Positions 19,865-51,907 of a stretch of DNA of 64,000 bases are shown here, piece by piece. Source of the stretch: Caulobacter sp. (lineage in GTDB: Bacteria > Pseudomonadota > Alphaproteobacteria > Caulobacterales > Caulobacteraceae); contig JAHBYC010000007.1 of the NCBI GenBank assembly GCA_019636175.1, forward strand, positions 1-64,000, written 5' to 3'. The translations under genes were made by a program, and so were the position numbers. Under the pieces are notes generated by a model. That model saw nothing but the letters and a program-made list of their open reading frames with translations. It was not told the origin of the DNA and searched no databases. Positions within the stretch are counted from its first letter, which is position 1. The number at the start of each line of letters is the position of its first letter.

Positions 19865-19880
19865 AGTGGTAGGCGCGGCA
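19865..19880 (+). repeat. Island attachment repeat, left copy (att)
   Basis: AGTGGTAGGCGCGGCA is identical and in the same orientation as 51892-51907, which is the 3' end of the tRNA(CAT) gene including CCA. The copy is followed by CCTACCAC, making a small palindrome with GTGGTAGG. It marks the probable far boundary of the integrated element. Confidence 0.75.
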
Positions 19881-20023
19881 CCTACCACGATAACATAGAA
19901 GTTCTCTATATTTCTGATAGATAGATTTTTTGACACCAAAAATACCGTCAAAAATACCGTCAACCACACAGCTCTGCGCTTGGCGCGAGCGGCGATGTTC
20001 TCCAGTTAACCGCGTCCAAATTC

Positions 20024-20311
20024 CTAAAACAGGTCCCCCGAGCAGATAGTTAGGGCATGAGCCAGCGCAATCAACAACTTCGCTGAGGCGTTTCGCTCGC
20101 CCCGTTCCAATAGGCCCACGTAGTTTCGGTAAAGTCCCGCCTGGTCCGCCAGTACTTCCTGGCGAACTGCCGCACGCTCCCGACAGCGGCGTAGCCCGCG
20201 CCCCAGCCCAGCCCCAACGAATCGAGTCAACGACCACAAAGGAATGGTCGCGGGGGCCGCAGGTCGCTCTATCGCGTGCTCCTTTGCCCCGAGATGTCCG
20301 CTCGGCGCCAT
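20024..20311 (-). CDS. XRE-family helix-turn-helix protein
   Basis: A protein of about 95 residues whose C-terminal 60 residues form a Cro/CI-type helix-turn-helix: LGRGLRRCRERAAVRQEVLADQAGL, then RNYVGLLERGERNASAKLLIALAHAL. The N-terminal 35 residues are not recognisable and the start is uncertain (ATG at 20311 or TTG at 20338; neither has a strong ribosome binding site). It is the first gene inside the island's left boundary and may regulate element genes or be a remnant. Confidence 0.6.
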   Translation of the reverse strand: MAPSGHLGAKEHAIERPAAPATIPLWSLTRFVGAGLGRGLRRCRERAAVRQEVLADQAGLYRNYVGLLERGERNASAKLLIALAHALTICSGDLF

Positions 20312-20493
20312 AAGCTGACGTCCAATTAAAGCCTGCAATCAGACATTCGGGCCATGCTCCTGACGCCCGTCGAACCCGGCCAATAGCGAGCCCGTCAGAC
20401 AGGCGCGGGCGATTTGATAAGCGCGAAGTCTTCGTCTTCCTCGACCATCGCCGGGAGTTCGACGAACGCGTAAACGGAGCATTCACCGCCCCT

Positions 20494-21102
20494 TCATCCG
20501 ACGGGCAGCAACGCTTCCAGTTCTTCCGCAGTGTTGGCGTTGGCGAAAGGGTCGTGCGGGCCGGTCGGCCAAGGGACCGGGATCACGCCCAGAATGGCGG
20601 CCAGACCCTTGAGCGACCGGCGGCCGGACGCGACATAGGTCCGCAAGTCCGCGCCGGCGTCGGTTGGCCACAGTGCGCAGACAGGATGGAGCCGCCCGCC
20701 GCTCGTCGCCACCGCGACCCGCCCGCCCGCCGCTCCTCCCTCATCCAGCGCGGCCTGGAGGCGGAGCCTCAGGTTGTCGGGCAGAAGCGGCATGTCGCAG
20801 GGAAGCGTCAGCACATGATCGGCGCCCAAGCGGTCAGCGAAAGCGAGGGCCGCGGCGAGACCCGCCAGAGGCCCCTCGATGGCCGGATCGTCAAGCAAAA
20901 GGGATGTCCCCGGAAAGGTCGGCGCCTGGTCCGGCCGGCGGGCGGCAATGCCGACGACGGCCCCATAGCAGCGGGCCCTGGCCTCCGCCCTGGCGATCAG
21001 AGTGGTGTCGCCGAAGCGTCGGAACGGCTTGCGGCCGCCCATGCGTCGCCCCTCGCCCCCCGCCAGGATGACCGAGATGCGGAGCCGCGAGCCGCCGGTC
21101 AC
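20494..21102 (-). CDS. mobA: Molybdenum cofactor guanylyltransferase
   Basis: A 202-residue nucleotidyltransferase that attaches GMP to Mo-molybdopterin to give the bis-MGD cofactor needed by NarG. The GTP-binding signature ISVILAGGEGRRMGGRKPF, the segment EGPLAGLAAAL, LPCDMPLLP (metal-binding Asp) and the C-terminal DPFANANTAEEL are all characteristic. The GTG start overlaps the hemerythrin stop codon (GTGA). It is the last gene of the nar operon, an arrangement that couples cofactor supply to nitrate reductase synthesis. Confidence 0.93.
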   Translation of the reverse strand: MTGGSRLRISVILAGGEGRRMGGRKPFRRFGDTTLIARAEARARCYGAVVGIAARRPDQAPTFPGTSLLLDDPAIEGPLAGLAAALAFADRLGADHVLTLPCDMPLLPDNLRLRLQAALDEGGAAGGRVAVATSGGRLHPVCALWPTDAGADLRTYVASGRRSLKGLAAILGVIPVPWPTGPHDPFANANTAEELEALLPVG

Positions 21103-21650
21103 GCCGGCGCCTCACAGGCGCCTGGACCGCGACGCGCGGCCAGGCTCTGGCCCAGGTCGGCCAGGTCGCCGCGTGACAGCCGCAGCCGGGCGATTGGCAG
21201 GACCACCGCGTTCTCCAGAGCCAGATGTCGCAATTCCTGGCTGGCGAAGGCCTTGAGGCTGTCGCGGCAGGCCGGAACCAGCCCCGGGGCGATCCGCTGC
21301 TCAAGACAGGCTTCGAGGTGATCGGCCAGGCTGGCCGCCCGCCCGACGTCGAGCCGATGTTCGGCGGAAAGTTGCCCAAGCACGTCTTCGATATTGTCCT
21401 CCTTCCGGGCGCGGCGACGCAGAAGCGGAAACAGGAATTCTTCCTCGTCGGCGACATGCCATCCAAGTTCCCTGCGCACAAAGGCGACCAGACGGGCCAG
21501 AGGAGCCTGATCGAAGGCCGGGGCCTCCGACGCCTGGACCATCAGCCGGCAGATCTGGCGGTGTCGCTCATGCTGGTCGAAGAACCACGCCAGAGGGTCG
21601 GTCATCCCGGACCGCGCGACGTCCTCGATCACGGGACGGTTCGACCGCAT
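21099..21650 (-). CDS. Hemerythrin-domain protein
   Basis: A 183-residue four-helix protein with a spaced set of possible di-iron ligands: H27 in FFDQHERH, H65 and E69-E71 in WHVADEEEFLFPLL, H98 in SAEHRLD, and H142/E146 in LRHLALENAVVLP. These match the hemerythrin HHE pattern. Such domains bind O2 or NO, or help protect iron centres. It sits within the nar operon, 13-16 bp after the porin gene and overlapping mobA, so oxygen or NO handling during nitrate respiration is plausible. The ATG at 21650 follows a GGGGAG site. Confidence 0.82.
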   Translation of the reverse strand: MRSNRPVIEDVARSGMTDPLAWFFDQHERHRQICRLMVQASEAPAFDQAPLARLVAFVRRELGWHVADEEEFLFPLLRRRARKEDNIEDVLGQLSAEHRLDVGRAASLADHLEACLEQRIAPGLVPACRDSLKAFASQELRHLALENAVVLPIARLRLSRGDLADLGQSLAARRGPGACEAPA

Positions 21651-21666
21651 CAAGACTGCTCCCCCG

Positions 21667-22872
21667 TCAGTATCTGAATTCCAGCGTCAGCCAGATCTTG
21701 CCGCGATCGGCATAGGCCGGCTGGGCGCCGTCAAACCAGGCGCCCTTGATCTCGGCGCTGAGCTGGTCTGTCAGCGGCGCCGACACCACCAGGTCCAGTT
21801 CGCGCCCGTAGCGGTCGCCGCCGTCAGCCTGTGAAAAGTCGTGGACCGCCGCCTGGATCTTCACGCCCCTGGGCAGGACGGCGGGCTTGAGGGCCAGGCC
21901 GGCCCGAAGGTCGATATCCCTCACCCCGTCAGCCGGGGTGTTGAGGAAGACGTCGGCCCAGCCCTGGAAGGCGTGGAGGGTGGCCAGGGGCGTCCGAAAG
22001 CCCCGCACGCCATCGCCATCCAACCGCTCAAGATCGATGGCGACCCACCAGGGGTCCTTCTTGATCCCGCCGGAGAGGGCCAGATAGTCGAGGTCGAAGG
22101 CCGCCGGACTGTTGCGATAGTCCGTCTGTCGGGCGTACTCGACCGCGTAGGTCGCGAAATAGCCGTCGCCCAGCGGCCGCGCGCCCGCCAACCGTCCGCC
22201 CAGGGTGGCGTTCGACTGGGCCGGGGCGGATTCGAAGGCCATCAGATAGGCGTAGCCGGTGAGCTGGCCCGCCGGGGTCTTGGTCTCGAACTGCAGCAGG
22301 TGGGAATCGCTGTCCCATTCCCCCTGCGGGCTGTCCGGGCCGAACACCCGGTGAACCCGGTCGATATAGGCGTAGGTGAAGGTCGTGGCCGCGGACGACC
22401 TGAAGTCGAGGCGGACGGCGTCGAAGGTCTGTTCGTTCTGGCGAAAGCCGACATTGCCGACGAAGCGCGCATTGCCCAGGATGATCCGCTGGCGCCCGAC
22501 CACGGCCGCCGCGGACTCCCCGGTCCAGGAGATCTGGGCGCGGTTGATTTCCGTGCCCTCCGGATCGGCGACCACCGGATAGGCCCCCTTCAGATTGATC
22601 GTGCTGTTGTAATCATCGACGATGGCCGTGACGTTTTCGGCCTCGACCAGGGCTTTGAACCCGCTCCAGACCGGGGTTTCGTATCCCAGACGGGTTCGCA
22701 GGGTGAGGGCGTCGGCGTCCCGGGCGACTCCGTCCTGGGTCACCGCTTCGTAGCGCAACCGCGCATCGATGATGAAATGCCCCGCCGAGGGTTCGGCGGC
22801 CAGGGCCGTCGCCGGCGCGACAACGGCGACAGCGACGGCGAACAGGCTCAGAAGTGTCCTTCGAATCCGCAC
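21667..22872 (-). CDS. Outer-membrane porin, alginate-export-like family
   Basis: A 401-residue beta-barrel protein with a signal peptide (RRTLLSLFAVAVAVVAPATALAAE) and a C-terminal aromatic strand ending WLTLEFRY. Motifs such as RLRYE, RTRLGYETP, NRAQISWTG, GRQRIILGNARFVG and FRQNEQTFDAVRLDF are those of the alginate-export/OprE-like porin families. The GTG at 22872 is chosen for its AGGAG site. Four bases separate it from the PPIase gene, so it belongs to the nar operon; a role in nitrate or nitrite passage across the outer membrane is inferred. Confidence 0.8.
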   Translation of the reverse strand: MRIRRTLLSLFAVAVAVVAPATALAAEPSAGHFIIDARLRYEAVTQDGVARDADALTLRTRLGYETPVWSGFKALVEAENVTAIVDDYNSTINLKGAYPVVADPEGTEINRAQISWTGESAAAVVGRQRIILGNARFVGNVGFRQNEQTFDAVRLDFRSSAATTFTYAYIDRVHRVFGPDSPQGEWDSDSHLLQFETKTPAGQLTGYAYLMAFESAPAQSNATLGGRLAGARPLGDGYFATYAVEYARQTDYRNSPAAFDLDYLALSGGIKKDPWWVAIDLERLDGDGVRGFRTPLATLHAFQGWADVFLNTPADGVRDIDLRAGLALKPAVLPRGVKIQAAVHDFSQADGGDRYGRELDLVVSAPLTDQLSAEIKGAWFDGAQPAYADRGKIWLTLEFRY

Positions 22873-22876
22873 GCGA

Positions 22877-23986
22877 CTATCTCCTGCGAACAACGGTGTA
22901 GGTGCGCGTCGCCGGGGTGAGCCGCGACTTGAGAATTGAGGCCATCGCCGCGATCGCCGGGTCGTCGGCGCCCTGGGCGGCGGAGATCAGATGTGTCCAG
23001 CGCTCGTCGTCGGCGGTGTTGACGAAGGCGGTCACCGAGGCCCTGACAAGATCGGCGACCGCAACGCCGCCTTCCCTCGCCGCCTCGCGGACACGCGCCG
23101 CCAGATCGGGGTCGGCGGTATCCAGCCAGGCCTCCAGCCGTTCGGTCGAGACGCCTTCGGCCAGCATCTGGCCCAGGGACGGCGCGTCCGTGGCGAAGCG
23201 GCCGTCGCGGGTCAGGCTGAAGGCCACCCCCCTGGCCCGGGCCCGGTCAGCCAGATCGGCGACATATCGGATCGCCGCCGCGGTCCAGGCCCGGCTTTCC
23301 AGGTGCAGGCTGATGCGGTGGTGAACATAGGCGAAGGGCAGCAACTGACCCTCGATGCGGCGGTCGAGTTTCAGCAGATGCCACCCGAACCGCGACCGAA
23401 CCAGATGGTCCAGGATCTGACCGGCTTGAAGACCGCTCAGGGCGGCTTCGACTTCACCGACCAGATCGCCCGGCGCCAGCTGCCCAAGCGAGCCGCCAAC
23501 CTCCCGGGAGGTGCAGTCGGACACGGCCTTCGCCGTGGCGGCGAAACTGCCCGGCGCGGTGATCACGGCGCGCAGGATGTCCTCGCCCCGGCGGCGGGCG
23601 AGCTCCCAGCCCTCGGCGCTGTCATCGCGCGCCTCGATGAGAATATGGGCGGCCTCGACCAGGGCCGGCGAGGTGAACAGCTCGGGGCGCGCCTCATAGA
23701 CCCGCCGACATTCGGCCTCGCCCGGCGGATCGGTCTCGACCTCGGCGTCCAGCACGGCCCGGATCAGCGCGTCCTCTTCGGTTTCCTCCCGGCCGTCGTC
23801 GTCGGTTCGCGGCTCGGGGCGCAGACCAAGCTCGTCAGCCCGGTGCAGCAGCAACGCCTTCACCGCCAGCGCCTTGCCGGCCGCCTTGCGAGCCTCGGCG
23901 GCCGATGGACCGGGGTGGTTCTGGACCTCCGCGGCAATGAGGAATTCGGGAATCTCGACGCCGTCGACGACAAGGCTGTGCAACAT
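22877..23986 (-). CDS. Parvulin-type peptidyl-prolyl isomerase of the nar operon
   Basis: A 369-residue protein without a signal peptide. A parvulin domain occupies about residues 108-215 (VEAAHILIEARDD, DCTSREVGGSLGQLAPGDLVGEVEAAL, GQILDHLVRSRFGWHLLKLDRR). The flanking helical regions are unlike SurA or PpiD. Genes of this type follow narI in several denitrifier nar operons, where they are thought to help fold or mature nitrate reductase. Here it starts four bases after narI. The lack of an export signal points to cytoplasmic action on NarGHI assembly. Confidence 0.85.
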   Translation of the reverse strand: MLHSLVVDGVEIPEFLIAAEVQNHPGPSAAEARKAAGKALAVKALLLHRADELGLRPEPRTDDDGREETEEDALIRAVLDAEVETDPPGEAECRRVYEARPELFTSPALVEAAHILIEARDDSAEGWELARRRGEDILRAVITAPGSFAATAKAVSDCTSREVGGSLGQLAPGDLVGEVEAALSGLQAGQILDHLVRSRFGWHLLKLDRRIEGQLLPFAYVHHRISLHLESRAWTAAAIRYVADLADRARARGVAFSLTRDGRFATDAPSLGQMLAEGVSTERLEAWLDTADPDLAARVREAAREGGVAVADLVRASVTAFVNTADDERWTHLISAAQGADDPAIAAMASILKSRLTPATRTYTVVRRR

Positions 23987-23990: not shown

Positions 23991-24767
23991 CTACTCCGCG
24001 GGCGTCTGGGGCGAGGCCGGACGCTGTCCGGCCCTGGGCGTAGAGGGATAGATCGGCGCGGCGACCTCGGGTCGGCGCGGCAGGGTCCGGCGGGTCCGCA
24101 CCAGCTGCCAACCCCGGCGGTTGAGGTACCAGATCGGCGCCGAGAGCATGTGAACCAGCCGGGTGAAGGGGAAGACCAGCAGGATGGTCATGCCCAGCAC
24201 CAGATGCGCCTTGAAGATCGGATGCACGTCGGCGACCACATCGGCGATGCCCGGCCGGAAGGTGAAGACGCCCTGGGCCCAGGTCATGAACTTCAGCATT
24301 TCATGGCCGTCGAGGTGATGGGCCGAGATCGGGATGGTCGCCAGCCCCAGACAGAGCTGCAGGATGAGAACGATCAGGATGGCGCTGTCGCCGAAGCTGG
24401 AGGTCTTGCGAATCCGCGGATCGAAGAGCCGGCGGTGCAGCAGCAACAGCCCGCCCGCCAGGCAGAACAACCCGGCGACGCCGCCCGCGACCATGGCCAG
24501 AATCTGCTTGGCGCCGTGGGGGACGCCGAGGGCGTCGAACACCCAGATGGGGGTCAGCAGACCGACGAAGTGACCGGCGAAGATGGTCAGGACGCCGAGG
24601 TGAAACAGGATGGAGCCGAGCACCAGCTGCCGTCGCCGCAGGAGCTGGGATGAGCCGGTGCGCCAGGTGTATTGCTCGCGGTCGAACCGCAGGATCGACC
24701 CGAGCGCCAGCACCGACAGGCAGATGTAGGGATAGACGCCGAACAGGACCTGATTGAGAAACGACAT
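23991..24767 (-). CDS. narI: Respiratory nitrate reductase gamma subunit (cytochrome b)
   Basis: A 258-residue membrane subunit that takes electrons from quinol and passes them through two b haems to NarH. Five membrane helices are visible. The four haem ligands are H56 and H66 (LFHLGVLTIFAGHFVGL) and H188 and H206 (FKAHLVLG, RLVHML), which match the E. coli pattern. It begins 11 bp after narJ. The C-terminal tail is Pro/Arg-rich and cytoplasmic. Confidence 0.96.
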   Translation of the reverse strand: MSFLNQVLFGVYPYICLSVLALGSILRFDREQYTWRTGSSQLLRRRQLVLGSILFHLGVLTIFAGHFVGLLTPIWVFDALGVPHGAKQILAMVAGGVAGLFCLAGGLLLLHRRLFDPRIRKTSSFGDSAILIVLILQLCLGLATIPISAHHLDGHEMLKFMTWAQGVFTFRPGIADVVADVHPIFKAHLVLGMTILLVFPFTRLVHMLSAPIWYLNRRGWQLVRTRRTLPRRPEVAAPIYPSTPRAGQRPASPQTPAE

Positions 24768-24778: not shown

Positions 24779-25486
24779 CTAGATGGTTGCGCCGGCGCGC
24801 CGGGGCGCCGGCCGGGGGTCGGCGTTCATGGCCTCGACCAGGGCGCTGGCCTTGGGACAGTCGACATCGGAGGGACCGAAGGTGACGGCGGTTTCCTCCC
24901 AGGCCTTGTCGAGACTCTCCAGGTCGTTGGGGTCGACGTCCGGCTCGCTGAGCAGGGCGGCGAGGGCCGCCGGATCGGACCGGGCCGAGGCCAGTCTGGC
25001 TAGGGCGCCGAACACCGCCCGATAGGCGCTGCCGCGCTTCTTCAGTCGCTCGCCCATGGCTTCCAGCACATGGGCGGCCTCGCCCAGCAGGGACGCCGCC
25101 TCGGGCTCGGGAAGCGTCGACAGAAACTCCAGGAACACCGGCAGGAAGTCGGGCAGCTCATTGGCCGCCAGATCCAGGCCCCGGGTCCGGTAGAGTTCGA
25201 GCAGGGCGACCATCGCCTCGCCGCGGTCGCGGCTTTCGCCGTGCACATGCTCATAGAGGTTCAGCGACAGGGACCGGGTCCGGTCGAACAGTTCGGTATA
25301 GGCCTCCTGCAGATCATAGATGTCGCCGGCGGCGATATCCGCCGCCAGCCTGTCCAGCGCCTGGACGAGGGGGCGGGGGACCATGGCCTCGGCGGCGACC
25401 ACGGCGACCGCCTCCGGCGCCAGTCGCTGCAGGTCCGGATCCGGATAGGTCAGCAGGACGGCCAGGGCCTTGTAGGTGCGCGCCAT
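24779..25486 (-). CDS. narJ: Nitrate reductase assembly chaperone
   Basis: A 235-residue all-helical chaperone of the TorD/NarJ family, needed for insertion of the molybdenum cofactor into NarG and for membrane attachment of NarGH. Characteristic segments are KALAVLLTYPDPDLQ at the N-terminus, YVxLFDRTRSLSLNLYEHVHGESRDRGEAM (seen as YTELFDRTRSLSLNLYEHVH) and LPDFLPVFLEFLS. It lies three bases after narH and before narI in the canonical order. Confidence 0.95.
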   Translation of the reverse strand: MARTYKALAVLLTYPDPDLQRLAPEAVAVVAAEAMVPRPLVQALDRLAADIAAGDIYDLQEAYTELFDRTRSLSLNLYEHVHGESRDRGEAMVALLELYRTRGLDLAANELPDFLPVFLEFLSTLPEPEAASLLGEAAHVLEAMGERLKKRGSAYRAVFGALARLASARSDPAALAALLSEPDVDPNDLESLDKAWEETAVTFGPSDVDCPKASALVEAMNADPRPAPRRAGATI

Positions 25487-25489: not shown

Positions 25490-27013
25490 TCAGGCCTCCA
25501 TCGGGGTTTTGGCGCGGGAGCGCTTGTTGGGACCGAACAGGCCCAGTTCGGTGCGACCGCCCGAACAGCCGTTGCCGAAGCTGAACCCGCAGGAGCCGCG
25601 CATGTCGTAGGCGTCCTCGGCGGTCTCGCGGTGGGCCGAGGGGATGACGAAGCGGTCCTCGTAGTTGGCGATCGCCATGTAGCGGTACATGTCGTCGATG
25701 GCGGCGGCCGTCAGGCCGACCCGCTCGGCGATCCGGTGATCGATACGGCCATCGACGGTCTTGGCGCGCATGAAGGCGCGCATCGCCATCATCCGCTCCA
25801 GGGCCAGGACGACCGGCGGTTCATTGCCGGCGGTGAGAAGGTTGGCCAGGTAGCGGACCGGGATGCGTAGGGCGCTGACGTCCGGCATCTCGCCGTCCAT
25901 CTCCAGCGCCCCGGAGGCCGCGGCCGACTGGATCGGCGACAGCGGCGGCACGTACCAGACCATCGGCAGGGTCCGGTATTCCGGGTGCAGGGGAAAGGCG
26001 ACCTTCCAGTCGATGGCCATCTTGTAGACCGGGCTGATCCGGGCGGATTCCAGCCAGGCTTCCGGCACGCCGTCGGCCCGGGCCTGGGCGATGACCGCGG
26101 GATCGTTGGGGTCGAGGAAGACGTCCAACTGGGCCTGATAGAGGTCCTTCTCATCGGGGGTCGAGGCGGCGGCCTCGATGCGGTCCGCGTCGTAGAGCAG
26201 GACGCCGAGATAGCGGATGCGCCCGACGCAGGTCTCGGAGCAGACCGTCGGCTGGCCCACCTCGATGCGCGGATAGCAGAAGGTGCACTTCTCCGACTTT
26301 CCGGATTCCCAGTTGTAGTAGATTTTCTTGTAGGGGCAGGCCGAAACGCACATCCGCCAACCGCGGCATTTGTCCTGGTCGATCAGGACGATGCCGTCTT
26401 CTTCCCGCTTGTAGATGGCGCCCGACGGGCAGGCGGCGACGCAGGTCGGATTGAGGCAGTGCTCGCAGAGCCTGGGCAGGTACATCATGAAGGTGTTTTC
26501 GAACTGGGCGTAGACCTCCTTCTCGATCCCTTCGAAGTTGACGTCGGCTGACCGCTTGCTGAACTCGCCGCCGAGGATCTCCTCCCAGTTGGGACCCCAT
26601 TCGATCTTTTCCATCCGCTGTCCGGTGATCTTCGAGCGGGGGCGAGCCGTGGGGAAGGCCTTCATCTCGGGCGCGGTCTGGAGGTGGGCGTAGTCGAAGT
26701 CGAAGGGTTCGTAATAGTCGTCGATCTCCGGCAGGTCGGGATTGGCGAAGATCTTCGCCAGGATCCGCCATTTGGCGCCCATGCGCGGTTCGATCTTGCC
26801 GTTGGGCTTGCGCACCCAGCCGCCGTTCCAGCGCTTCTGGTTCTCCCATTCCTTGGGAAAGCCGATGCCGGGCTTGGTTTCGACATTGTTGAACCAGGCG
26901 TATTCAACGCCCTCGCGATTGGTCCAGACGTTCTTGCAGGTCACCGAGCAGGTGTGACAGCCGATGCATTTGTCGAGATTCAGCACCATGCCGATCTGGG
27001 CGCGGACTTTCAT
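25490..27013 (-). CDS. narH: Respiratory nitrate reductase beta subunit (iron-sulfur)
   Basis: A 507-residue electron-transfer subunit. Four cysteine clusters are visible: CIGCHTCSVTCKNVW (from residue 17), CEHCLNPTCVAACPSGAI, CRGWRMCVSACPYKK, and CTFCYPRIEVGQPTVCSETCVGR. The tryptophan in CRGWRMC replaces a cysteine and marks the [3Fe-4S] centre typical of NarH. The start overlaps narG by ATGA. Length matches the family (about 510). Confidence 0.97.
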   Translation of the reverse strand: MKVRAQIGMVLNLDKCIGCHTCSVTCKNVWTNREGVEYAWFNNVETKPGIGFPKEWENQKRWNGGWVRKPNGKIEPRMGAKWRILAKIFANPDLPEIDDYYEPFDFDYAHLQTAPEMKAFPTARPRSKITGQRMEKIEWGPNWEEILGGEFSKRSADVNFEGIEKEVYAQFENTFMMYLPRLCEHCLNPTCVAACPSGAIYKREEDGIVLIDQDKCRGWRMCVSACPYKKIYYNWESGKSEKCTFCYPRIEVGQPTVCSETCVGRIRYLGVLLYDADRIEAAASTPDEKDLYQAQLDVFLDPNDPAVIAQARADGVPEAWLESARISPVYKMAIDWKVAFPLHPEYRTLPMVWYVPPLSPIQSAAASGALEMDGEMPDVSALRIPVRYLANLLTAGNEPPVVLALERMMAMRAFMRAKTVDGRIDHRIAERVGLTAAAIDDMYRYMAIANYEDRFVIPSAHRETAEDAYDMRGSCGFSFGNGCSGGRTELGLFGPNKRSRAKTPMEA

Positions 27014-33614: not shown

Positions 33615-33628
33615 TTGACCAGGATCAA
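33615..33628. promoter_or_regulatory. FNR/DNR-type box upstream of the nar operon
   Basis: TTGACCAGGATCAA matches TTGAT-N4-ATCAA with one change. A TATCAA hexamer on the minus strand (33595-33590) lies at the right distance to be a -10 element with the box near -40, the class II activating position. This is the likely promoter for narK1 through mobA. Confidence 0.65.
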
Positions 33629-33706
33629 ATCATGGGATTCGCTTGACTGTTCATCTCATGTTTTGTCGACAGCAACGTCATGAGATGATGGAGTTACATT
33701 TAATTG

Positions 33707-33720: not shown

Positions 33721-33728
33721 CTATACAC

Positions 33729-33742: not shown

Positions 33743-33765
33743 GTACGGGAATTTACATATCCCGG

Positions 33766-41538: not shown

Positions 41539-41611
41539 GAGAGTTCTCCTTACGTCAAAGCGATCCGGAAACTCTGGCGTCACGACAAAAGTGCGAAATG
41601 ATCGAGATGAT

Positions 41612-42157
41612 TTATTTCGCGATTATCTTACTGTTTTTTATCTCTATTATTTTTTTTCGTAGATTTTTCCGTAGGGCTTCGATTCGTGTCTGCAGGTCTC
41701 GACCCGCGTTGCGGTGACCAAACATGTCAGGTTGGCCGGGCTGATTTAGAGCGAGATCTTTGGCCAGCCTGGAAGCCATCAGATGCAGTTCGCCGAGCGC
41801 CTCCTCCAACGTAATCAGGTGCGCCGCAATCTCCTCTCGGCCGGCCTCAATTTCCCCCAATGAGACACCGACTGAAACATCGGAGCCGCCTTCGCTTTCC
41901 GGAAGAACCCTTGCTCGCCTTGGTCGGGCGCCGTTGCCGATTTGCTGGATGCGACGCTCTGTCAGCTGAAACTGCCGGGCCAGAGCCTGGACTTGTTTTC
42001 GCTTGCCCCGTGCGACCTGGTAGGCCTCCCAGATTTCGAGATTGTCGGAGCGCTTTCGAGCCGCTCCGCTCGCACGACCACCTGCTCGACCTCGCTGGGT
42101 CTTCGCGGCCTTCGGCGTTTTGGGGTTTGGAGAGCGGGGCATTGATGCGGCAGGCAT
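41612..42157 (-). CDS. Hypothetical basic protein with possible helix-turn-helix
   Basis: A 181-residue protein, Lys/Arg-rich at both ends. Residues about 45-72 (AYQVARGKRKQVQALARQFQLTERRIQQI) look like a homeodomain-like helix-turn-helix; the C-terminal part is helical and may form a coiled coil (ITLEEALGELHLMASRLAKDLAL, RIEALRKNLRKKIIEIK). The final codons lie in an unusually AT-rich stretch. It precedes the AlpA and ATPase genes on the same strand, 73 bp away. A DNA-binding role is inferred; family is not recognised. Confidence 0.55.
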   Translation of the reverse strand: MPAASMPRSPNPKTPKAAKTQRGRAGGRASGAARKRSDNLEIWEAYQVARGKRKQVQALARQFQLTERRIQQIGNGARPRRARVLPESEGGSDVSVGVSLGEIEAGREEIAAHLITLEEALGELHLMASRLAKDLALNQPGQPDMFGHRNAGRDLQTRIEALRKNLRKKIIEIKNSKIIAK

Positions 42158-42548
42158 CCTCGATGCGCGAGTGTTTGGAAGAAACCCACTGCGGATTCGC
42201 CAACCTTGCCGCCCGTCCTGTCAAAATGGAACAGGCCCTCGTCAGAGCCTGACATCATCCCGCCCGTTTGGCCCATGTGGGACAATTGGCGGGCTTCGCT
42301 GGCGGTGCGGATTTGGCCACAACGCCCGACCGGCCAAGCCCTCTTGCTCCGGCCTCTCCCAGCAGCCCGCCCACGCTCTGTCAGCGCGACCTGTCACCAA
42401 CTGTCAAAGTTAGCACGGGCCTGACATCACTGACTGACAGGCCGATAACAGGACCCTGTCAGCACCCGTTTCAACCAACGCGAATGCAACCTCCGCTTCC
42501 ACTTGGCCGCCAGACTTGCCAAAGTGCGTTCCGGGAGGGTTGGGGGCA
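42158..42548. promoter_or_regulatory. Intergenic region upstream of the R-M operon with a CTGTCA/CTGACA array
   Basis: This 391-bp gap separates the leftward HTH-like gene from the rightward hsdR. CTG(T/A)CA occurs six times in 85 bp, at 42378, 42391, 42401, 42421, 42434 and 42456, with further CTGTCA and CTGACA at 42218 and 42249. Some copies extend to CTGACAG or CTGTCAG, so the motif is partly symmetrical. It could be an operator array for restriction control, a site set for the AlpA/HTH proteins or an iteron-like origin. Confidence 0.5.
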
Positions 42549-45500: not shown

Positions 45501-45923
45501 CGACCTCGAGACCTCACCCGCGCCGCGCTTCGGGACCTGAGACTGCAGTTGGACGCGCAAGGCTTCACTGACGCCAAGATTCGCCGAGCCTGGTCGGAGG
45601 CGAAGAATGAGGACATCGCCGCTTCGATCATCGGCTTCGTCCGCCAGGCCGCTCTTGGGGACCCGCTTGTTCCCTACGCCGACCGGGTCAAGCGGGCGGT
45701 CGAAAAGGTGAGCAGCCAGGGCGGCTGGTCGCCGGTCCAGAAGCGGTGGCTTCACCGCATCGGCGAACAGTTGGAGAAGGAGATCGTCGTCGATCGCACG
45801 TCTCTGGACGAGGAGCCCTTCCTGGCTGACGGGGGCTTCCGGATCCTCAACAAGCGGTTCGACGGACAGTTGGAGAAGGTCCTGTCGGACCTCAGTGAGG
45901 AAGTATGGCGAACGGCGAGCTGA
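42549..45923 (+). CDS. hsdR: Type I restriction endonuclease subunit R
   Basis: A 1124-residue translocase/nuclease subunit of the EcoEI type. A DUF4145 domain (about 30-120) is followed by a coiled-coil (145-220), the PD-(D/E)xK nuclease core with D296, E310 and K312 (PADYALFVGLKLVGVIEAK), helicase motif I ATGTGKT (448-454), motif II DECH (554-557), and an EcoEI_R_C-like C-terminus. The TTG at 42549 is preferred because GGGAGGG lies nine bases upstream and the protein then begins MQSSNFGFL as in relatives. It overlaps hsdM by 19 bp. Confidence 0.93.
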   Translation: MQSSNFGFLETHDTRLPKLAALAERYFSDDPPTTLIKLRQYAEVLCGLVAANAGLLGLPNETFADRLRRLQYERVAPREASELFHQLRTLGNRAAHEGLGTHAEALSALKIARELGIWFHRSFGGEARFSPGAFIPPRPPVDPTLELRAELDRLRTELAMSQTESERAMAEAAMEAEARLSAEMRAAREAEEKADWSRLAEETDAQLRELSARLAVIQAASEADPAKTLAFVERSQEGASNIRLDEAATRTIIDQQLRDAGWDADTQLLRHAKGSRPTKGKNLAIAEWPTDSGPADYALFVGLKLVGVIEAKRSNRNVMTALRQAERYSAGIKLSEDQLSEGAPWGEFRAPFAFSTNGRPYLRQLETASGIWRRDLRRGINPAGALLGWPTPQGLLERLEVDRDAAESSLKTQGFDFGFPLRPYQRKAIEAVETGLAADRPHMLIGMATGTGKTKLAIAMLYRLIAAKRFRRVCFVVDRSALGDQTEKEFTTTKVVSGKSFAEIFGLKGLSDATPDPETRIHICTIQGLVKRVLYADTPADAPPVDQYDLIVVDECHRGYLLDREMSDAELSFRSQDDYVSKYRRVLDYFDATKIGLTATPALHTVQIFGEPVFTYSYREAVVDGFLIDHEPPVRITTALAKDGIHFIAEEEVTFIHAPTGQTELFKLPDALDFEVEAFNKTVITPPFNRAVADELTRHIDLSEPDKTLVFAASDAHADIVVQSLRDAFRAAYGELEDAAIEKITGSVDRVGKLILSYRNDTFPKIAVTVDLLTTGIDVPKITNLVFLRRVNSRILYEQMLGRATRLCPEIGKETFRIFDAVDLYSRLQNLTEMRPVASDPAISLSQLLNELAEVEDARHRADVRDQIIVKLSRRLKRMTQEARAKAQLAAGETPEDTLVRFRTGSVEELVNWVKARPGLGPALDWQTDGGVPALMPISEHPDEVVDVSHGYGGADKPEDYLNSFAAFIKANLNQIAALTTVVQRPRDLTRAALRDLRLQLDAQGFTDAKIRRAWSEAKNEDIAASIIGFVRQAALGDPLVPYADRVKRAVEKVSSQGGWSPVQKRWLHRIGEQLEKEIVVDRTSLDEEPFLADGGFRILNKRFDGQLEKVLSDLSEEVWRTAS

Positions 45924-47386
45924 CCCGGGGACGGGTCACCACCCAGGACATTGTCAGCAAGCTCTGGAGCCTCTGCCACGTCCTGCGCGACGACGGCGTG
46001 AGCTATCAGGAGTACGTCACTGAGCTGACCTTCCTGCTATTCCTCAAGATGCTGGAGGAGACCGGCCGGGAGGAGCGTCTTCCTGAAGCTTACCGCTGGA
46101 ACCAGATCGCCCGGCGCGAGGGCGTCGATCAGCTCGACCACTACAAGCGCGCCCTGCTGGATCTCGGGCAAGCTCCTGATCCCACGGTGCAGGCCATCTT
46201 CACCGACGCCCAGACCAAGCTGCGCAAGCCGGCCAACCTCAAGACACTGACCACGGCTATCGACGGCCTGGACTGGTTCTCGGCGCGGGAGGAGGGGCTC
46301 GGCGAGCTCTATGAAGGACTGCTGGAAAAGAACGCGGCGGAGAAGAAGTCTGGCGCGGGCCAGTACTTCACACCCCGCCCCCTGATCGATTGCATCGTGC
46401 GGCTGATGAAGCCTCAGCCGGGGGAGGTAATCCAGGACCCGGCCGCTGGGACGGGCGGCTTCCTCGTCGCCGCCGACCGCTACATCAAGGACGCCACCGA
46501 CGACCTGTACGGCCTGCCCCAGGCCCAGGTCTTCTTCCAGCGGCACAACGCCTTCACCGGCGTCGAACTGGTCCCTGACACCCACCGCCTCGCCCTGATG
46601 AATCTGATGCTGCACGGCATCGAGGGTCCGATCGTTCTGGGCGACAGCCTTTCGCCGGATGGAGAAGCGCTGGGCAAGGCGGACCTGATCCTCACCAACC
46701 CGCCCTTCGGCACCAAGAAGGGCGGCGGGCGGCCCAGCCGCTCGGACTTCTCGATCACCGCCGACACCTCGAACAAGCAGCTGGCCTTCGTCGAGCACAT
46801 CGTCCGCGCCCTCAAGCCGGGCGGCCGCGCGGCGGTGGTCCTGCCGGACAATGTGCTGTTCGAGGACAACACCGGCCGCCGCCTGCGCCAGTGGGTGATG
46901 GAGTTGGCCGACCTGCACACGATCCTGAGGCTGCCGACGGGCATCTTCTACGCCCAAGGGGTCAAGACCAACGTCTTGTTCCTGCGCCGGGGCGCGAAGG
47001 ACCGAGCCAACACCCAGGCCGTCTGGGTCTACGACATGCGCGCCAACATGGCCGCGTTCGGCAAGACGCGACCACTCACGCTGGCTGACTTCGCGGCATT
47101 CGAGACCGCCTACGGCGAGGATTCGAACGGCGCTTCACCGCGCACGGAAGAGGGCCCGGATGGTCGCTTCCGCCGCTTCAGCCGCGAGGACATCGCCGCC
47201 CGCAACGACAACCTCGACATCGCCTGGCTGCGCGATGACAGCGCGGAAGCCGAGGACGACCTGGTCGAGCCGGAGGACATCGCTGCGGCGATTATGGGCC
47301 ATCTACGGGCGGCGCTAGCCGAGGTGGAGGCGGTGGAGGAGGAATTGGCTGCCGAAGGGGTGGCGCTGGTTGAGGTGGACGGATGA
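45905..47386 (+). CDS. hsdM: Type I restriction-modification DNA adenine methyltransferase subunit M
   Basis: A 493-residue N6-adenine methyltransferase. An N-terminal HsdM_N helical domain (QDIVSKLWSLCHVLRDDGVSYQEYVTELTFLLFLKML) is followed by the SAM-binding motif I DPAAGTGGF (178-186) and catalytic motif IV NPPF (265-268). GAGGAAGT stands before the ATG inside the end of hsdR, and the stop overlaps hsdS (ATGA). It modifies host DNA together with HsdS and is needed by HsdR. Confidence 0.96.
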   Translation: MANGELTRGRVTTQDIVSKLWSLCHVLRDDGVSYQEYVTELTFLLFLKMLEETGREERLPEAYRWNQIARREGVDQLDHYKRALLDLGQAPDPTVQAIFTDAQTKLRKPANLKTLTTAIDGLDWFSAREEGLGELYEGLLEKNAAEKKSGAGQYFTPRPLIDCIVRLMKPQPGEVIQDPAAGTGGFLVAADRYIKDATDDLYGLPQAQVFFQRHNAFTGVELVPDTHRLALMNLMLHGIEGPIVLGDSLSPDGEALGKADLILTNPPFGTKKGGGRPSRSDFSITADTSNKQLAFVEHIVRALKPGGRAAVVLPDNVLFEDNTGRRLRQWVMELADLHTILRLPTGIFYAQGVKTNVLFLRRGAKDRANTQAVWVYDMRANMAAFGKTRPLTLADFAAFETAYGEDSNGASPRTEEGPDGRFRRFSREDIAARNDNLDIAWLRDDSAEAEDDLVEPEDIAAAIMGHLRAALAEVEAVEEELAAEGVALVEVDG

Positions 47387-48822
47387 AGCCGCCGGGTTGG
47401 GCGGAAACGCCGCTTGCCGCCGTTGCGACTAAGATCGGTAGTGGGGCCACCCCTAGGGGCGGGAGCGAATCGTACACTAGAGAGGGTGTGCCCCTCATTC
47501 GCTCCATGAATGTGCATTTCGATGGTGTGCGCCTCGAAGGCTTAGCTCATCTGGACGACACCCAAGCGGCGGCATTGGCCAATGTCGAAGTTGCGGCAGG
47601 AGACGTCCTGCTGAATATCACCGGTGCATCAATCGGTCGGGTTGCTGTTGCGCCCGCCATCCTTGCTGGTGCCCGGGTCAATCAGCACGTCTCGATCATT
47701 CGACTGGCGGCCGGATTGGAACCACAGTTTGTCCGGGCTTATCTTGCCTCCCCCGTCGCCCAAGCAATCATCGGTGGTGAGAACTATGGGGTGACACGTC
47801 CGGCCCTAACGAAGGGCCTGATCGAGGAAATGAGGATCCCTGTTGCCCCTCTCGCAGAGCAGCGAAGGATCGTGGCGAAGCTCGACGGCCTGATCACCAG
47901 CACGGCGCGCGCGCGCGCTGAACTCGATCGCGTGCCGGCGCTGGCCACGCGTTACAAGCAGTCGGTGCTGGGGAGAGCGTTTAGCGGGCAGTTGACGGCG
48001 GCGTGGCGTGCTGCCCAGTCTGCCTTCGAGCCTATCTCACCCCGTAGCGAAGGCGACATCCGAGCGAAATACCGGACGGCCGGCGCTTCTACCGGCTTCA
48101 CGCCGCCATATGGAATTCCCAAAAGCTGGCGCTGGCTGCGGCTGCCGGAACTTGGAGACATGGATCGCGGCAAGTCGCGCCATCGGCCTCGTGACGACCC
48201 CCGGCTTTTCGGTGGCCTCTTCCCATTTGTGCAGACTGGAGAGGTGCGTGCGGCCGACCGTTACCTGACCAGCTATGCTAAGACATACAGCCCCTTCGGT
48301 CTCGAGCAGAGCAGGCTTTGGCCCGCCGGGACCGTGTGCATCACTATTGCAGCGAATATCGCCGAGACTGCGATCCTGGGAATCGATGCGTGCTTTCCAG
48401 ACAGCGTTGTAGGCTTCAGCGCTGATCAGGCGCGCTGCCTGCCCGAATACGTCGAGTATTTTATCCGAACGGCAAAGGCCGACCTGGAGCAGTTCGCGCC
48501 GGCGACCGCGCAGAAGAACATCAACTTGGAGGTCCTTGGAGCTATCCGCCTGCCGGTTCCGCCTCTGGGTGAACAAGCCGAAATTGTCCGCAAGATCGAC
48601 GTCGCCTTCGCCGAAATTGACCGTCTCTCCGCCGAAACCTCAGCCGCGCGCAAGCTCCTCGACCGTCTCGACCAAGCTGTTCTCGCCAAGGCCTTCCGTG
48701 GCGACCTTGTGCCGCAAGACCCGGCCGACGAGCCGGCCAGCGTCCTGCTTGACCTCATCCGCGCCGAACGGGCCGGCGCGCCCAAGGGCAAGCGAGAGCG
48801 AAGACCTCGAGAAGCAGCGTGA
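47383..48822 (+). CDS. hsdS: Type I restriction-modification specificity subunit S
   Basis: A 479-residue specificity subunit with two target-recognition domains. TRD1 begins GWAETPLAAVATKIGSGATPRGGS and TRD2 begins SWRWLRLPELGDMDRGKSRHRP; each is followed by a conserved helix (LAEQRRIVAKLDGLITSTARARAELDRV and LGEQAEIVRKIDVAFAEIDRLS). The two halves imply a bipartite recognition sequence, which cannot be read from the protein. The stop codon overlaps the next gene (GTGA). Confidence 0.95.
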   Translation: MKPPGWAETPLAAVATKIGSGATPRGGSESYTREGVPLIRSMNVHFDGVRLEGLAHLDDTQAAALANVEVAAGDVLLNITGASIGRVAVAPAILAGARVNQHVSIIRLAAGLEPQFVRAYLASPVAQAIIGGENYGVTRPALTKGLIEEMRIPVAPLAEQRRIVAKLDGLITSTARARAELDRVPALATRYKQSVLGRAFSGQLTAAWRAAQSAFEPISPRSEGDIRAKYRTAGASTGFTPPYGIPKSWRWLRLPELGDMDRGKSRHRPRDDPRLFGGLFPFVQTGEVRAADRYLTSYAKTYSPFGLEQSRLWPAGTVCITIAANIAETAILGIDACFPDSVVGFSADQARCLPEYVEYFIRTAKADLEQFAPATAQKNINLEVLGAIRLPVPPLGEQAEIVRKIDVAFAEIDRLSAETSAARKLLDRLDQAVLAKAFRGDLVPQDPADEPASVLLDLIRAERAGAPKGKRERRPREAA

Positions 48823-49796
48823 GGGTCTTCATCGTCAATGTAGGCCAGCAAAACTACCTCTGGCCGGACTGCCTTGCGCGGAACACCGTCGCGACCGTCG
48901 ACAACGTCGCCGTCCATCACTTCTGGGATCAGCGAGACCGCAAGGGGTACATTGAGCACGCGCTCGCGCACCTGAAGACAGCGCGCAACGAGACGCCGAC
49001 ACGAGCGGTCGCATCCCGCTGGTACGGGCTGATGGAGGCGATCACCGAGACGGGCGGCGACATCTGGATCCACCGGGAAAAGGAACAGCTATGGTGGACG
49101 ACCTCCCTCGGCGATCCCGTCCAGACCGAGCGCCGACCGTCCTTCAACGCCGTGCGCGACGGGCCGGAGATCTTTGAACTCCACAAGCCCTGCGAGCCGT
49201 GGTCGGACCGAAACCGGAAGGGTGGAAAGCTCTCCTGGGACGGGCTGCATCCCAAGGCCAAGGACTTCCTGTTCACGGAGGGGACGCTCCAGCAGCTTGC
49301 TCCTGACAACGCCGCCTATGCTCTGGCGCTGATCGCCGGTGACGACCTTTCTGGATGGCACAACCAGCCGACCTGGCAGGCGAAGTCCGACCGCGCCGGG
49401 CGGTCCGCCGTAACGTCATTCAGCCCCGCCCAACGGGCGGCCTGGCGCATGGCCGATACGGCGCTGGCCACGGTGGCACAGTCCAACGGACAGCAAGCGC
49501 TCCGAACGATCAAGAACAAGGACTGTCTGTTCACTCGTGAGGAACTGCGGGAGTATATCCAGTCACTGATCCTCGATCAGGATGAGCTCTGCGCGATTAC
49601 GGGCATCCCGCTCCAGTTCGATGGCGCGCAGGAGGACTCCGAACTGTTGGCCTCACTGGACCGGATCGACAGCAACGGCCATTACGAGCGCGGAAACCTC
49701 CAGGTCGTCTGTCGCTTCGTGAACCGCTGGAAGAGCGACGCCAGGGATGAGGAGTTTCGGCGGCTGATCGAGCTGGTGCGGACCTCGCGGTTCTAG
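48819..49796 (+). CDS. HNH-type nuclease-like protein coupled to the type I R-M operon
   Basis: A 325-residue protein whose GTG start overlaps the hsdS stop. The C-terminal 75 residues read as an HNH-type nuclease domain: C258-A-I-T-G (DELCAITGIPLQF), D281-RID (SLLDRID-like, seen as LASLDRIDSNGHYERGNLQVVCRFVNRWKSD) with H288, N293, C298 and N302. The N-terminal 105 residues (FIVNVGQQNYLWPDCLARNTVA, GGDIWIHREKEQLWWTTSL) look like a beta-rich reader module, possibly PUA/EVE-like, though this is only an impression. A modification-dependent nuclease that accompanies the R-M system is a reasonable hypothesis. Confidence 0.72.
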   Translation: MRVFIVNVGQQNYLWPDCLARNTVATVDNVAVHHFWDQRDRKGYIEHALAHLKTARNETPTRAVASRWYGLMEAITETGGDIWIHREKEQLWWTTSLGDPVQTERRPSFNAVRDGPEIFELHKPCEPWSDRNRKGGKLSWDGLHPKAKDFLFTEGTLQQLAPDNAAYALALIAGDDLSGWHNQPTWQAKSDRAGRSAVTSFSPAQRAAWRMADTALATVAQSNGQQALRTIKNKDCLFTREELREYIQSLILDQDELCAITGIPLQFDGAQEDSELLASLDRIDSNGHYERGNLQVVCRFVNRWKSDARDEEFRRLIELVRTSRF

Positions 49797-49809
49797 GTCA
49801 CGGTCGACC

Positions 49810-50412
49810 TCAGTAGGCCGACACCAGCGAAGGCGGGTCGCCGGTCGCCCAGGCCTGTCCGAAACTGTTCGCATCCTCCATTTGCTTGCCAAGCACCCCA
49901 AGCCACCCGCCTTCCCAGGTCCCGAACGCTGATCGGCCATCGGGCAGGGTCAGTTTTTGCGGAAGGGTGCGGATCAGGTAGACGGGATTCTGGCCGGCGC
50001 CGTACTCGGCGCCCAGTTCCGCGAAATCTTCTCCCGCCATGACGAATACCGCCTTGCCACCCCGTGACAGGGTGACCTTTCCGAACTTCCGATCCTTCAG
50101 GGCCTCGGCCGTCTGAAACAACTCACGGGTCAGATCGATGGTCGCCGCATCGCCGAGAGTCACAAGGTTCACCGTGATGTCGCGCGGGTGAACGAACCAG
50201 GCCCGGTAGACATGGATGCCGGCCGCATGATTGCGCTCATCTTTCGCCAGCGCCGCCGCGACCGGCGCCCAGGCGGTAAGATTGAACACCAAAATCAGAG
50301 CCAGGGCGGTGGCGGCGCCGATCGCCCATTTACGTCGATGCGTATCGACTGGAGGCGGGGTTTGAGGAGGCGCGACCGCCTCGCCTTCAGGCTCGCTGTC
50401 CGGTTCTTCCAT
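49810..50412 (-). CDS. Hypothetical membrane-anchored protein
   Basis: A 200-residue protein: an acidic, proline-rich N-terminal tail (about 1-25), one membrane helix (WAIGAATALALILVFNLTAW) and a 145-residue extracytoplasmic domain with TVNLVTLGDAATIDLTRELFQTA and GKAVFVMAGEDFAELG. Topology suggests an inner-membrane protein with a periplasmic domain. It is convergent with the HNH gene, 13 bp apart, and precedes the integrase gene on the same strand. I recognise no family. Confidence 0.65.
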   Translation of the reverse strand: MEEPDSEPEGEAVAPPQTPPPVDTHRRKWAIGAATALALILVFNLTAWAPVAAALAKDERNHAAGIHVYRAWFVHPRDITVNLVTLGDAATIDLTRELFQTAEALKDRKFGKVTLSRGGKAVFVMAGEDFAELGAEYGAGQNPVYLIRTLPQKLTLPDGRSAFGTWEGGWLGVLGKQMEDANSFGQAWATGDPPSLVSAY

Positions 50413-50504
50413 GGCGCTTATTCCCCCAGTGCGTGAAACCTATGGTTCACCACCGAAGGAGTCCCTCCCTCGAGAAGTCGGACGTGAGGCCGACCGATTT
50501 CGTC

Positions 50505-51731
50505 CTATGCCACGATGAAATCCATAGGGGCGCGGGGGGCGCGTTCCATCGTCCGGGCGGCGTCAAGATAGTCGGCCCACCAGCCCATCATCTTGCGTCG
50601 CTGCGGCAACCACTCCGCGGCGTTGTAGGCCGCCCGGACCTCGTCCCGTTCGGCGTGGGCCAACTGACGCTCCACCCAGTCACGATTGAAGCCATGCTCA
50701 TTGAGGATCGTTGACGCGGTCGACCGGAAGCCATGCACCGTGGCCCGGCTGTGGTAGCCCATGCGATAGAGTGCATAGATCATGGTGTTTTCGGAGATTG
50801 CTCCGGTCGTCGTGGCGGCCGGGAACAACAGGTCGTCGGCCGGCCATCCGGCGCGAAGGTCCTTAAGGACGGCCACGGCCTGTTTCGACAGCGGGACCAC
50901 GTGCTCGGTCCGCATCTTCATGCGCTCGGCGGGGATCCGCCACAACGGTTCCGCCCCATCAAGCCCTTCAAATTCGCACCAGGCTGCAAATCGCGTTTCC
51001 GAGGTACGCACGAAGGTCAGCAGGGTCAACTTCAACGCCAGTTGGGTCTGCAAATCACCGCTGTACCCCTCCAGAGCGACGAGGAAATCAGGCAAGTCCC
51101 TGGCCTTCAGGGATGCGCGGCGTTTCGGGGGCGGCCGGGTGCTCAGGGCCGGCGCGAGGTCTGCCGCCGGATTCGAGGTCACCAGTCGCTCCGCCTTGGC
51201 GAACCGGAAGATGTCCTGAAGATAGTTTCCCACCCGACGCGCTGTCTCGACTGCGCCTCGCGCCTCGATCGCTCGCAGGGCTGCCAGAACGTCATCCGAC
51301 GTGACGTCATCAATAGCCGCGTCCCCGAAGGCGCCGAAGGTGTCGTCCTCGATCCGTCGCCAGACCCGCTCGGCGTATCCGGCCACCCAGCGGGATTTGC
51401 GCGCTTCGAACCAGCGTGCCGCCACGCTGCGGAATTGAGCCCTGGCGGTTTCGTCAACCTTGCGCTTCTCCCGCGCCTTCAATTCGCACGGGTCCTGGCC
51501 TTCCCTCAGGCGCTTTCTGGCGTCGTCGCGGAGGTTGCGCGCCTCGACCAGCGTCACCTCGGCGCCGCTGCCGAGCGCCAGGGTCTTGCGCTTGCCATCG
51601 AACCGGTAGTCGACCCGCCAAAGCCTTGAACCCTTTGGGGTCACCAGAAGATAGAGCCCGCCGCTGTCAGCCATCTTGTACGGCTTGGCCTGAGGCTTGG
51701 CGTTCCTGACTCCGACGGCAGTGAGGCTCAT
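50505..51731 (-). CDS. int: P4-type tyrosine recombinase (island integrase)
   Basis: A 408-residue integrase. An N-terminal DUF4102/arm-binding domain (LTAVGVRNAKPQAKPYKMADSGGLYLLV) is followed by a SAM-like core-binding domain and the catalytic domain with R242 (TFVRTSETR), H333-x-x-R336 (VHGFRSTASTIL), H359 (QLAHAERD) and the nucleophile Y369 (AAYNAAEW). All catalytic residues are present, so it should be active. It reads away from the tRNA gene 162 bp to its right, the typical arrangement for tRNA-integrating islands. Confidence 0.94.
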   Translation of the reverse strand: MSLTAVGVRNAKPQAKPYKMADSGGLYLLVTPKGSRLWRVDYRFDGKRKTLALGSGAEVTLVEARNLRDDARKRLREGQDPCELKAREKRKVDETARAQFRSVAARWFEARKSRWVAGYAERVWRRIEDDTFGAFGDAAIDDVTSDDVLAALRAIEARGAVETARRVGNYLQDIFRFAKAERLVTSNPAADLAPALSTRPPPKRRASLKARDLPDFLVALEGYSGDLQTQLALKLTLLTFVRTSETRFAAWCEFEGLDGAEPLWRIPAERMKMRTEHVVPLSKQAVAVLKDLRAGWPADDLLFPAATTTGAISENTMIYALYRMGYHSRATVHGFRSTASTILNEHGFNRDWVERQLAHAERDEVRAAYNAAEWLPQRRKMMGWWADYLDAARTMERAPRAPMDFIVA

Positions 51732-51782
51732 TGACGGTATCCTGAGAGCCGAGCGGCTCCGATACCGCCTTGGATACCGTCA
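51732..51782. promoter_or_regulatory. Inverted repeat directly upstream of the integrase gene
   Basis: TGACGGTATCC (51732-51742) and GGATACCGTCA (51772-51782) are perfect inverted 11-bp arms; a third GATACCG core lies between them at 51761-51767 beside GAGCCG/CGGCTC. The position, touching the integrase start codon, fits integrase arm sites or an operator for autoregulation or an excisionase. Confidence 0.55.
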
Positions 51783-51891
51783 CGATTGATCGGATGCAAC
51801 TGGACGCCGCCGGATCACTTTAAACAATAGTTTATATAAATCGGTGCCTTGTGGCCCCTTAGCGAACTTCTCCGGAACCTCCCGGACGCAG

Positions 51892-51907
51892 AGTGGTAGG
51901 CGCGGCA
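51892..51907 (+). repeat. Island attachment repeat, tRNA copy (att)
   Basis: AGTGGTAGGCGCGGCA covers, on the opposite strand, the last bases of the tRNA T-stem, the 3' acceptor strand, the discriminator, CCA and two further bases. It is identical to 19865-19880 in the same orientation. Confidence 0.78.

Follow-up and report, generated by a model that had tools for sequence, protein, structure and literature searches.

We analyzed a window of 64,000 nucleotides (positions 1 to 64,000 of contig JAHBYC010000007.1, GenBank assembly GCA_019636175.1, deposited as Caulobacter sp.), which comes from a draft genome of the genus Phenylobacterium (hereinafter G000; 3,172,269 bases in 91 contigs, 87% complete). 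Between positions 19865 and 51907 this window carries, from one side to the other, a block of genes for nitrate respiration (hereinafter the nar block), a phage-type helicase with an AlpA-family gene, a type I restriction-modification (R-M) system, and an integrase gene adjacent to a tRNA(CAT) gene. The evidence presented below indicates that this stretch is very probably a single integrated genomic island with horizontally acquired nar genes.

Ends of the island and the empty site

The features that delimit the island are as follows:

19865..19880, minus strand: distal attachment (att) site; exact repeat, and breakpoint of the empty site in the related genome G038
19942..19962, plus strand: two direct copies of ATACCGTCA near the distal end, candidate arm-type sites
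50505..51731, minus strand: P4-type tyrosine integrase of 408 amino acids, with Arm, central and catalytic domains
51732..51782: copies of ATACCGTCA at 51732 (minus strand) and 51774 (plus strand), candidate arm-type sites at the integrase end
51892..51907, minus strand: tRNA-side att site, the last 14 tRNA bases plus 2; exact repeat and G038 breakpoint
51894..51969, minus strand: tRNA(CAT), identical to the empty-site tRNA of G038 in 76 of 76 bases

The 16-bp sequence AGTGGTAGGCGCGGCA, read on the plus strand in both places, forms an exact direct repeat at 19865-19880, to the right of the end of a TetR gene at 19850, and at 51892-51907; given the position of the tRNA gene, the right-hand copy consists of the last 14 bases of the tRNA and two more. 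The G000 assembly contains these two copies and no third exact one (reversed control pattern: none), with about 2e-5 copies per 33 kb of one strand, or 0.005 per whole genome, expected from base composition. An accidental repeat was accordingly excluded on the strength of the two genome copies, the tiny expected count and a palindromic core at the distal copy (see below).

Comparison of the relatives of the flanking genes among 75 genomes of the genus (G000 included) identified G038 as the best relative for both flanks (hydroxylase, 92% identity; TetR, 91%; 203 bases between them). The G038 locus (L101) has the contiguous order TetR–single tRNA–hydroxylase, i.e., an empty site. The window matches it with 89.8% identity up to 19852 and 88.2% from 51893, followed to the right of the site by matches of 86.6% and 91.3% and by three short ones of 77.5-86.0%; the four long matches span 86.6-91.3% nucleotide identity. 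In local alignment the left match runs through the repeat to 19880 and the right match begins at 51893, and hence the G038 breakpoint falls inside the shared 15-16 bases. Protein searches of G038 returned no match to narG, hsdR or the helicase, and its best integrase match (36% identical) is located elsewhere. This comparison establishes both ends of the island and the empty site.

On the minus strand, the distal repeat together with 19881-19888 forms a perfect inverted-repeat core, GTGGTAGG-TGCCGCG-CCTACCAC; a search for this pattern (two 7-base arms, nine apart, with at most 2 mismatches) found it once in the window and not at all in 100 shuffles. Lambda-type integrases use 7-bp overlaps with inverted core sites. 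Further, the motif ATACCGTCA occurs four times in the window (19942, 19954, 51732 and 51774; 0.13 expected), each time no more than about 160 bp from an island end, suggesting that these copies are candidate arm-type integrase sites. The palindromic core and the end-located motif copies fit site-specific recombination.

The first-pass annotation of this DNA had proposed a single unit bounded by a direct repeat with a catalytically complete P4-type integrase beside the tRNA. These proposals are borne out: the repeat is exact, all three integrase domains are present, the residues R, HxxR, H and Y of the catalytic motif of tyrosine integrases are readable, and the unit is supported by the empty site, the core and the arm-like sites. 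It had further predicted that a nar-less relative would have contiguous flanks with one att copy, as G038 indeed does; an empty site with breakpoints off the repeats, which it had named as a refuting case, did not occur. We also considered that the nar region might have been misjoined to the tRNA contig in assembly, with the 16-mer there by accident. Although the draft assembly is split into 91 contigs, a single 99-kb contig (C67) holds both junctions together with both syntenic flanks, and the breakpoint coincides with the repeat and the palindromic core, leaving this explanation with next to no credence.

Gene content and mosaic organization

All the genes that had been listed for the unit in the first pass (narK1K2GHJI, moaB/moeA/mobA, nnrS, a Ric-like gene, the regulator and the type I R-M system) are present. 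In order from the distal end, the island contains:

20024..20338, minus strand: XRE-type helix-turn-helix (HTH) protein, resembling R-M control proteins
20494..21102, minus strand: mobA, molybdenum cofactor guanylyltransferase (130 bits, below the cut-off of 151.85)
21099..21653, minus strand: hemerythrin-domain protein (the "Ric-like" gene)
21667..22893, minus strand: beta-barrel-like protein (weak Alginate_exp match below cut-off; also in the nar blocks of relatives)
22877..23986, minus strand: NifM/PpiC-like peptidyl-prolyl isomerase
23991..24767, minus strand: narI (above curated cut-off)
24779..25486, minus strand: narJ (above curated cut-off)
25490..27013, minus strand: narH (above curated cut-off)
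27010..30741, minus strand: narG, 1243 amino acids (2121 bits, cut-off 1084)
30738..32162, minus strand: narK2 (above curated cut-off)
32176..33537, minus strand: narK1 (204 bits, below the cut-off of 311.7)
33615..33779, plus strand: three perfect matches to the FNR-type box TTGAYNNNNRTCAA, in the stretch from narK1 to the regulator
33766..34599, plus strand: CRP/FNR-family regulator, divergent from narK1
34619..35920, minus strand: NnrS
35921..36068: 148-bp gap at the position of a ribonucleotide reductase in most other nar blocks
36069..36566, minus strand: unassigned frame (30-39% identical frames in the nar blocks of 8 other genomes)
36633..37865, minus strand: moeA (score under the cut-offs of the matching models)
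37817..38389, minus strand: moaB (above curated cut-off)
39016..39555, minus strand: unassigned frame (no match in profile scans)
39638..41344, minus strand: phage-type primase/helicase, helicase part only (phrog_35358, E=3.5e-113, profile positions 407-952 of 968)
41341..41583, minus strand: AlpA-family excisionase/regulator (PF05930, E=1.4e-13), with a four-base overlap with the helicase gene
41612..42157, minus strand: possible Mor/late-activator-like regulator (weak match)
42516..45923, plus strand: hsdR, type I R-M
45905..47386, plus strand: hsdM
47383..48822, plus strand: hsdS
48819..49796, plus strand: endonuclease VII/HNH-like protein, encoded last in the R-M operon
49810..50412, minus strand: unassigned frame (no match in profile scans)

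All four NarGHJI subunits score above their curated cut-offs. The description of this gene set as complete nitrate respiration overstates the case: nar, moaB, moeA and mobA are present, but scans of the island proteins identified no moaA, moaC, moaD or moaE, no molybdate uptake genes and no nitrite reductase, the host itself not having been searched. Four perfect matches to the FNR-type consensus occur in the window, namely the three between narK1 and the regulator and a fourth some 80 bases into nnrS as annotated; the true start of the regulator is probably downstream of 33766. The island probably enables a formerly nar-less host to convert nitrate to nitrite when oxygen is low, with regulation of the FNR type, a prediction that presupposes host synthesis of the molybdenum cofactor precursor.

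The island is a mosaic of an integrase/AlpA/phage-type helicase element, a type I R-M system and the nar block. These parts differ in G+C at third codon positions (GC3: nar block 0.859, backbone 0.865, mobile core genes 0.700, R-M 0.793), and overall G+C falls on both sides of the nar block (distal end 0.576, helicase/AlpA stretch 0.595, nar block 0.667). The endonuclease VII-like gene follows hsdS also in another genome, G001, and is therefore probably part of the R-M operon. The closest HsdR relatives (69-74%) are in G001 (L214, 5504-12862), G002 and G054 (L212, L213). The R-M control-protein-like HTH gene (20024-20338), near the distal att site, is separated from the R-M genes by 22 kb. Scans of the island proteins brought up no genes for a relaxase, type IV secretion or a capsid, and thus the island probably moves with a helper; RadC, YqaJ and Gp2-like genes were likewise not found in these scans, the frames at 36069, 39016 and 49810 being without assignment.

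Ancestry and distribution of the nar block

Searches with narG (E ≤0.001) recovered matches in 20 of 101 genomes; 19 of these are real by length and identity, and nine of the 19 genomes, G000 among them, lie within the genus. In a tree of NarG, NarH, NarK1 and NarK2 from 11 genomes (the fragmentary or short G025, G059 and G117 being left out), G000 groups with G052 (support 100/99). PheT, the single species marker used (rpoB was dropped because it is truncated at a G000 contig end and was not found in 2 of 27 genomes), instead groups G000 with G038 (support 100/100) and next with G060, G040, G014 and G019; genome searches found no narG match in any of these five. In line with this, G000 and G052 are 93.1% identical in NarG as against 77.4% in PheT (G052 and G026: 87.1% against 84.7%). 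Approximately unbiased (AU) tests on groups that were picked with the trees already at hand reject a G000+G052 grouping for PheT (p=9.6e-7) and a G052+G026+G028 grouping for the Nar proteins (p=5.5e-60). As the Nar proteins go with G052 but PheT goes with the nar-less G038, the nar genes of G000 were acquired horizontally. Mapped on PheT, nar presence requires at least six changes among 21 genomes, a non-random sample that leaves out G109, G110, G111 and G113.

These trees also bear on a scenario of loss, in which the island was ancestral and was later excised in G038. Precise excision would leave an identical empty site; yet the next PheT relatives (G060, G014, G019 and G040) lack a narG match, the tRNA still adjoins the hydroxylase in G060, G110 and G019, where the 16-kb stretches examined contain no match to the integrase, and the Nar proteins group with the distant G052 rather than with the host lineage. 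We accordingly consider loss very unlikely.

We then compared the nar places of other genomes (14 stretches from 13 genomes), none of which has a match (E 1e-6) to the integrase, R-M system, helicase, TetR or hydroxylase. The nar block is recognizable, with its order largely kept, in 12 of the 13, the exception being G117 with a contig of 6.5 kb. Departures include nnrS, regulator and beta-barrel genes outside the block (G054), a regulator beyond mobA (G115, G120 and G122), a beta-barrel gene between narJ and narI (G077), and mobA on the moaB side (G028); the blocks of G028, G059 and G025 are interrupted by contig ends. The flanks (4-14 kb) agree among G115, G120 and G122, and elsewhere match in isolated stretches only, often on the opposite side of the block. 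The comparison shows a conserved nar block being shuffled among Phenylobacterium species and genomic locations. As 12 other genomes have the block with neither this integrase nor this R-M system nearby, nar moves or is reshuffled by other routes too, and the earlier suggestion that islands of this kind explain patchy nitrate respiration is not supported.

The same distribution is relevant to a two-step origin, in which a smaller P4-type element (integrase, AlpA, helicase and R-M) settled in the tRNA gene and acquired the nar block there afterwards, the integrase then having had no part in bringing nar in. The host-like GC3 of the nar block next to the lower values of the mobile core and R-M genes speaks for such accretion, as does the block's occurrence elsewhere without the other parts; against it, no transposase was identified at the nar block edges among the scanned proteins, no direct repeat pairs the edges among 20 of 30 repeat families, the sister genome G038 lacks both parts, and both lie today between one pair of ends. 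We regard this origin as possible but the less favored, and lean modestly toward the nar genes having traveled inside the element as opposed to being added later.

Some further observations concern nar blocks in other genomes. NarG is 98.2% identical between G026:C25 and G028:C23, as against 81.9% for PheT, pointing to a second apparent recent transfer of the block. A ribonucleotide reductase, presumably of class II, lies between nnrS and moeA in 10 of 12 nar-bearing genomes searched (e.g., G052:C23:124931-127165) and was found neither in G000 and G054 nor in any of four nar-less relatives. The best relative of this reductase in the 87% complete G000 assembly is 33% identical, which raises the question of how DNA building blocks are made there without oxygen. 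In G037 a distance of 46 bases separates the end of the hemerythrin match from a tRNA-Ser 3′ end (L109 10985-11292 / L260 2156-2292); this nar block was not taken as an island because no repeat of the tRNA 3′ end occurs within 48 kb, and its contig has no PF00589 match.

Integrase relatives, proposed mode of integration and comparable islands

The 50 integrase relatives recovered from named genomes belong to Phenylobacterium, other Caulobacteraceae and, mainly, sphingomonads, and in 41 of these loci a tRNA(CAT) lies just upstream of the integrase (some of the other nine are at contig ends). The closest full-length relative in the genus (57% identity) is that of G052, likewise at tRNA(CAT); in the 88 kb examined there, the tRNA end recurs once (15 bases), 68 kb away (C9:363044), with a far-end core GTGGTAGC-TGCCGGG-CCTACCAG that has TGGTAG/CTACCA inverted arms. 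The interval between tRNA(CAT)/integrase and this second copy (G052:C9:295160-363058; L118, L263-L265) constitutes a 68-kb island, in which the other window genes give only two weak family-level matches. Full-length narG (70-91% identity) is present in 7 of the 39 genomes that cover 40 of the 50 loci (i.e., without L161-L170), namely G115, G117, G120, G122, G129, G144 and G152, and the nar places of G115, G120 and G122 (39 kb each) have no match to the island integrase.

Taken together, these features suggest a model in which the island's P4-type integrase would act on the 7-bp overlap TGCCGCG, which lies in the element between the inverted arms GTGGTAGG and CCTACCAC, and recombine it with the tRNA(CAT) gene at its 3′ end, such that integration would restore the tRNA. 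We infer the position of the crossover within the core and a role of AlpA in excision. The element core (integrase, AlpA and the helicase part) and the type I R-M operon would carry the nar block, whose source would be a lineage near G052. A bolder version, in which a phage-satellite-like integrase/AlpA/helicase island captured a whole anaerobic-respiration block, kept R-M as its own maintenance or defense cargo and, packaged by helper phages, moves nitrate respiration between Phenylobacterium species, appears unlikely at present.

Several points weigh against reading the locus as one integrated unit with horizontally acquired nar. The exact empty site comes from a single relative, G038, and the integrase–tRNA–nar arrangement is known from one genome, the 87% complete draft of 91 contigs. 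When this arrangement was sought elsewhere, as the first-pass annotation had advised, none turned up: nothing in the 50 integrase loci matches any of 21 other window proteins at E 1e-8 or better, although the flanks of these loci, at most 10 kb, are too short to reach a nar block 20 kb off. Moreover, the G052 far-end core resembles that of the island without being identical to it (its arms pair at 6 of 8 positions), and the mosaic make-up would also be consistent with a resident island having gained nar afterwards.

Such islands had been called not a standard type, but precedents exist for each half (respiration islands: PMC5748679, PMC3146451; integrase/AlpA/R-M: PMC12595487); the comparisons here rest on excerpts of the cited papers. 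The integrase/AlpA islands I23, I44 and I55 of Pseudomonas, carried by jumbo phages, share insertion at a small-RNA gene (transfer-messenger RNA, tmRNA), a 14-bp direct repeat, a tyrosine integrase, alpA and R-M/defense genes; the class is said to lack autonomous transfer genes and to target tmRNA or tRNA genes, and one of the islands has a 14-kb metabolic operon (PMC12595487). They differ in that integrase and AlpA lie near opposite ends, whereas here AlpA (41341-41583) is internal with nar beyond it, and in that the present cargo is a nar block, RadC and YqaJ not having been identified among the scanned proteins (PMC12595487). NCE of Thermus thermophilus is likewise a horizontally acquired nar unit of 30 kb with nitrate/nitrite transporters and its own regulators, but it lies on a megaplasmid, has no tRNA integration described in those excerpts, and differs in its genes (NarC, a dedicated NADH dehydrogenase, DnrS/DnrT and DrpA/DrpB) (PMC5748679, PMC7694296). 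The vinyl-chloride islands of Dehalococcoides resemble ours in their respiratory reductase cargo, site-specific integration at the small-RNA gene ssrA and discordant phylogenies of integration module and cargo, and differ in enzyme, integration module and size (about 12 kb) (PMC3146451). In the alphaproteobacterium Sphingopyxis granuli TFA, which has no nirS or nirK, narUGHJI is exclusive to the strain within its genus and accompanied by a divergent CRP/FNR-type regulator (ftrB), but the excerpt describes no tRNA island with ends (PMC4741004). The nar/molybdopterin locus of Propionibacterium freudenreichii combines nar and cofactor genes and has a stretch missing from nitrate-negative strains, termed a genomic island in a legend; this is an actinobacterium, and no integrase or att site is named in that excerpt (PMC4437456). 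Cupriavidus CH34 has nar genes for which no island is claimed in the part consulted (PMC2864759). By title and abstract opening, the papers listed in our searches of the open-licence literature include neither a nar island in Phenylobacterium nor a tRNA-integrated island combining nar, AlpA and R-M. The present locus offers a base-exact case in which a Phenylobacterium lineage with narG-less near relatives gained nitrate respiration genes that now lie on a site-specific element; with its att core and candidate arm sites, both integration and excision can be put to a direct test.

Finally, a viral origin was rejected, as viral contigs give one distant integrase relative (41%) and no helicase relative. 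Weak AlpA relatives (E 1e-3) occur in 2 of the 50 integrase loci (L155 9325-9516, 38%; L130 14178-14402, 31%), and the pairing of integrase and AlpA may thus recur in this element family. G014:C163 (L092 / L259 10196-10845) has a broken integrase, in pieces 66-77% identical to that of the island, beside tRNA-Leu(TAA) rather than tRNA(CAT).

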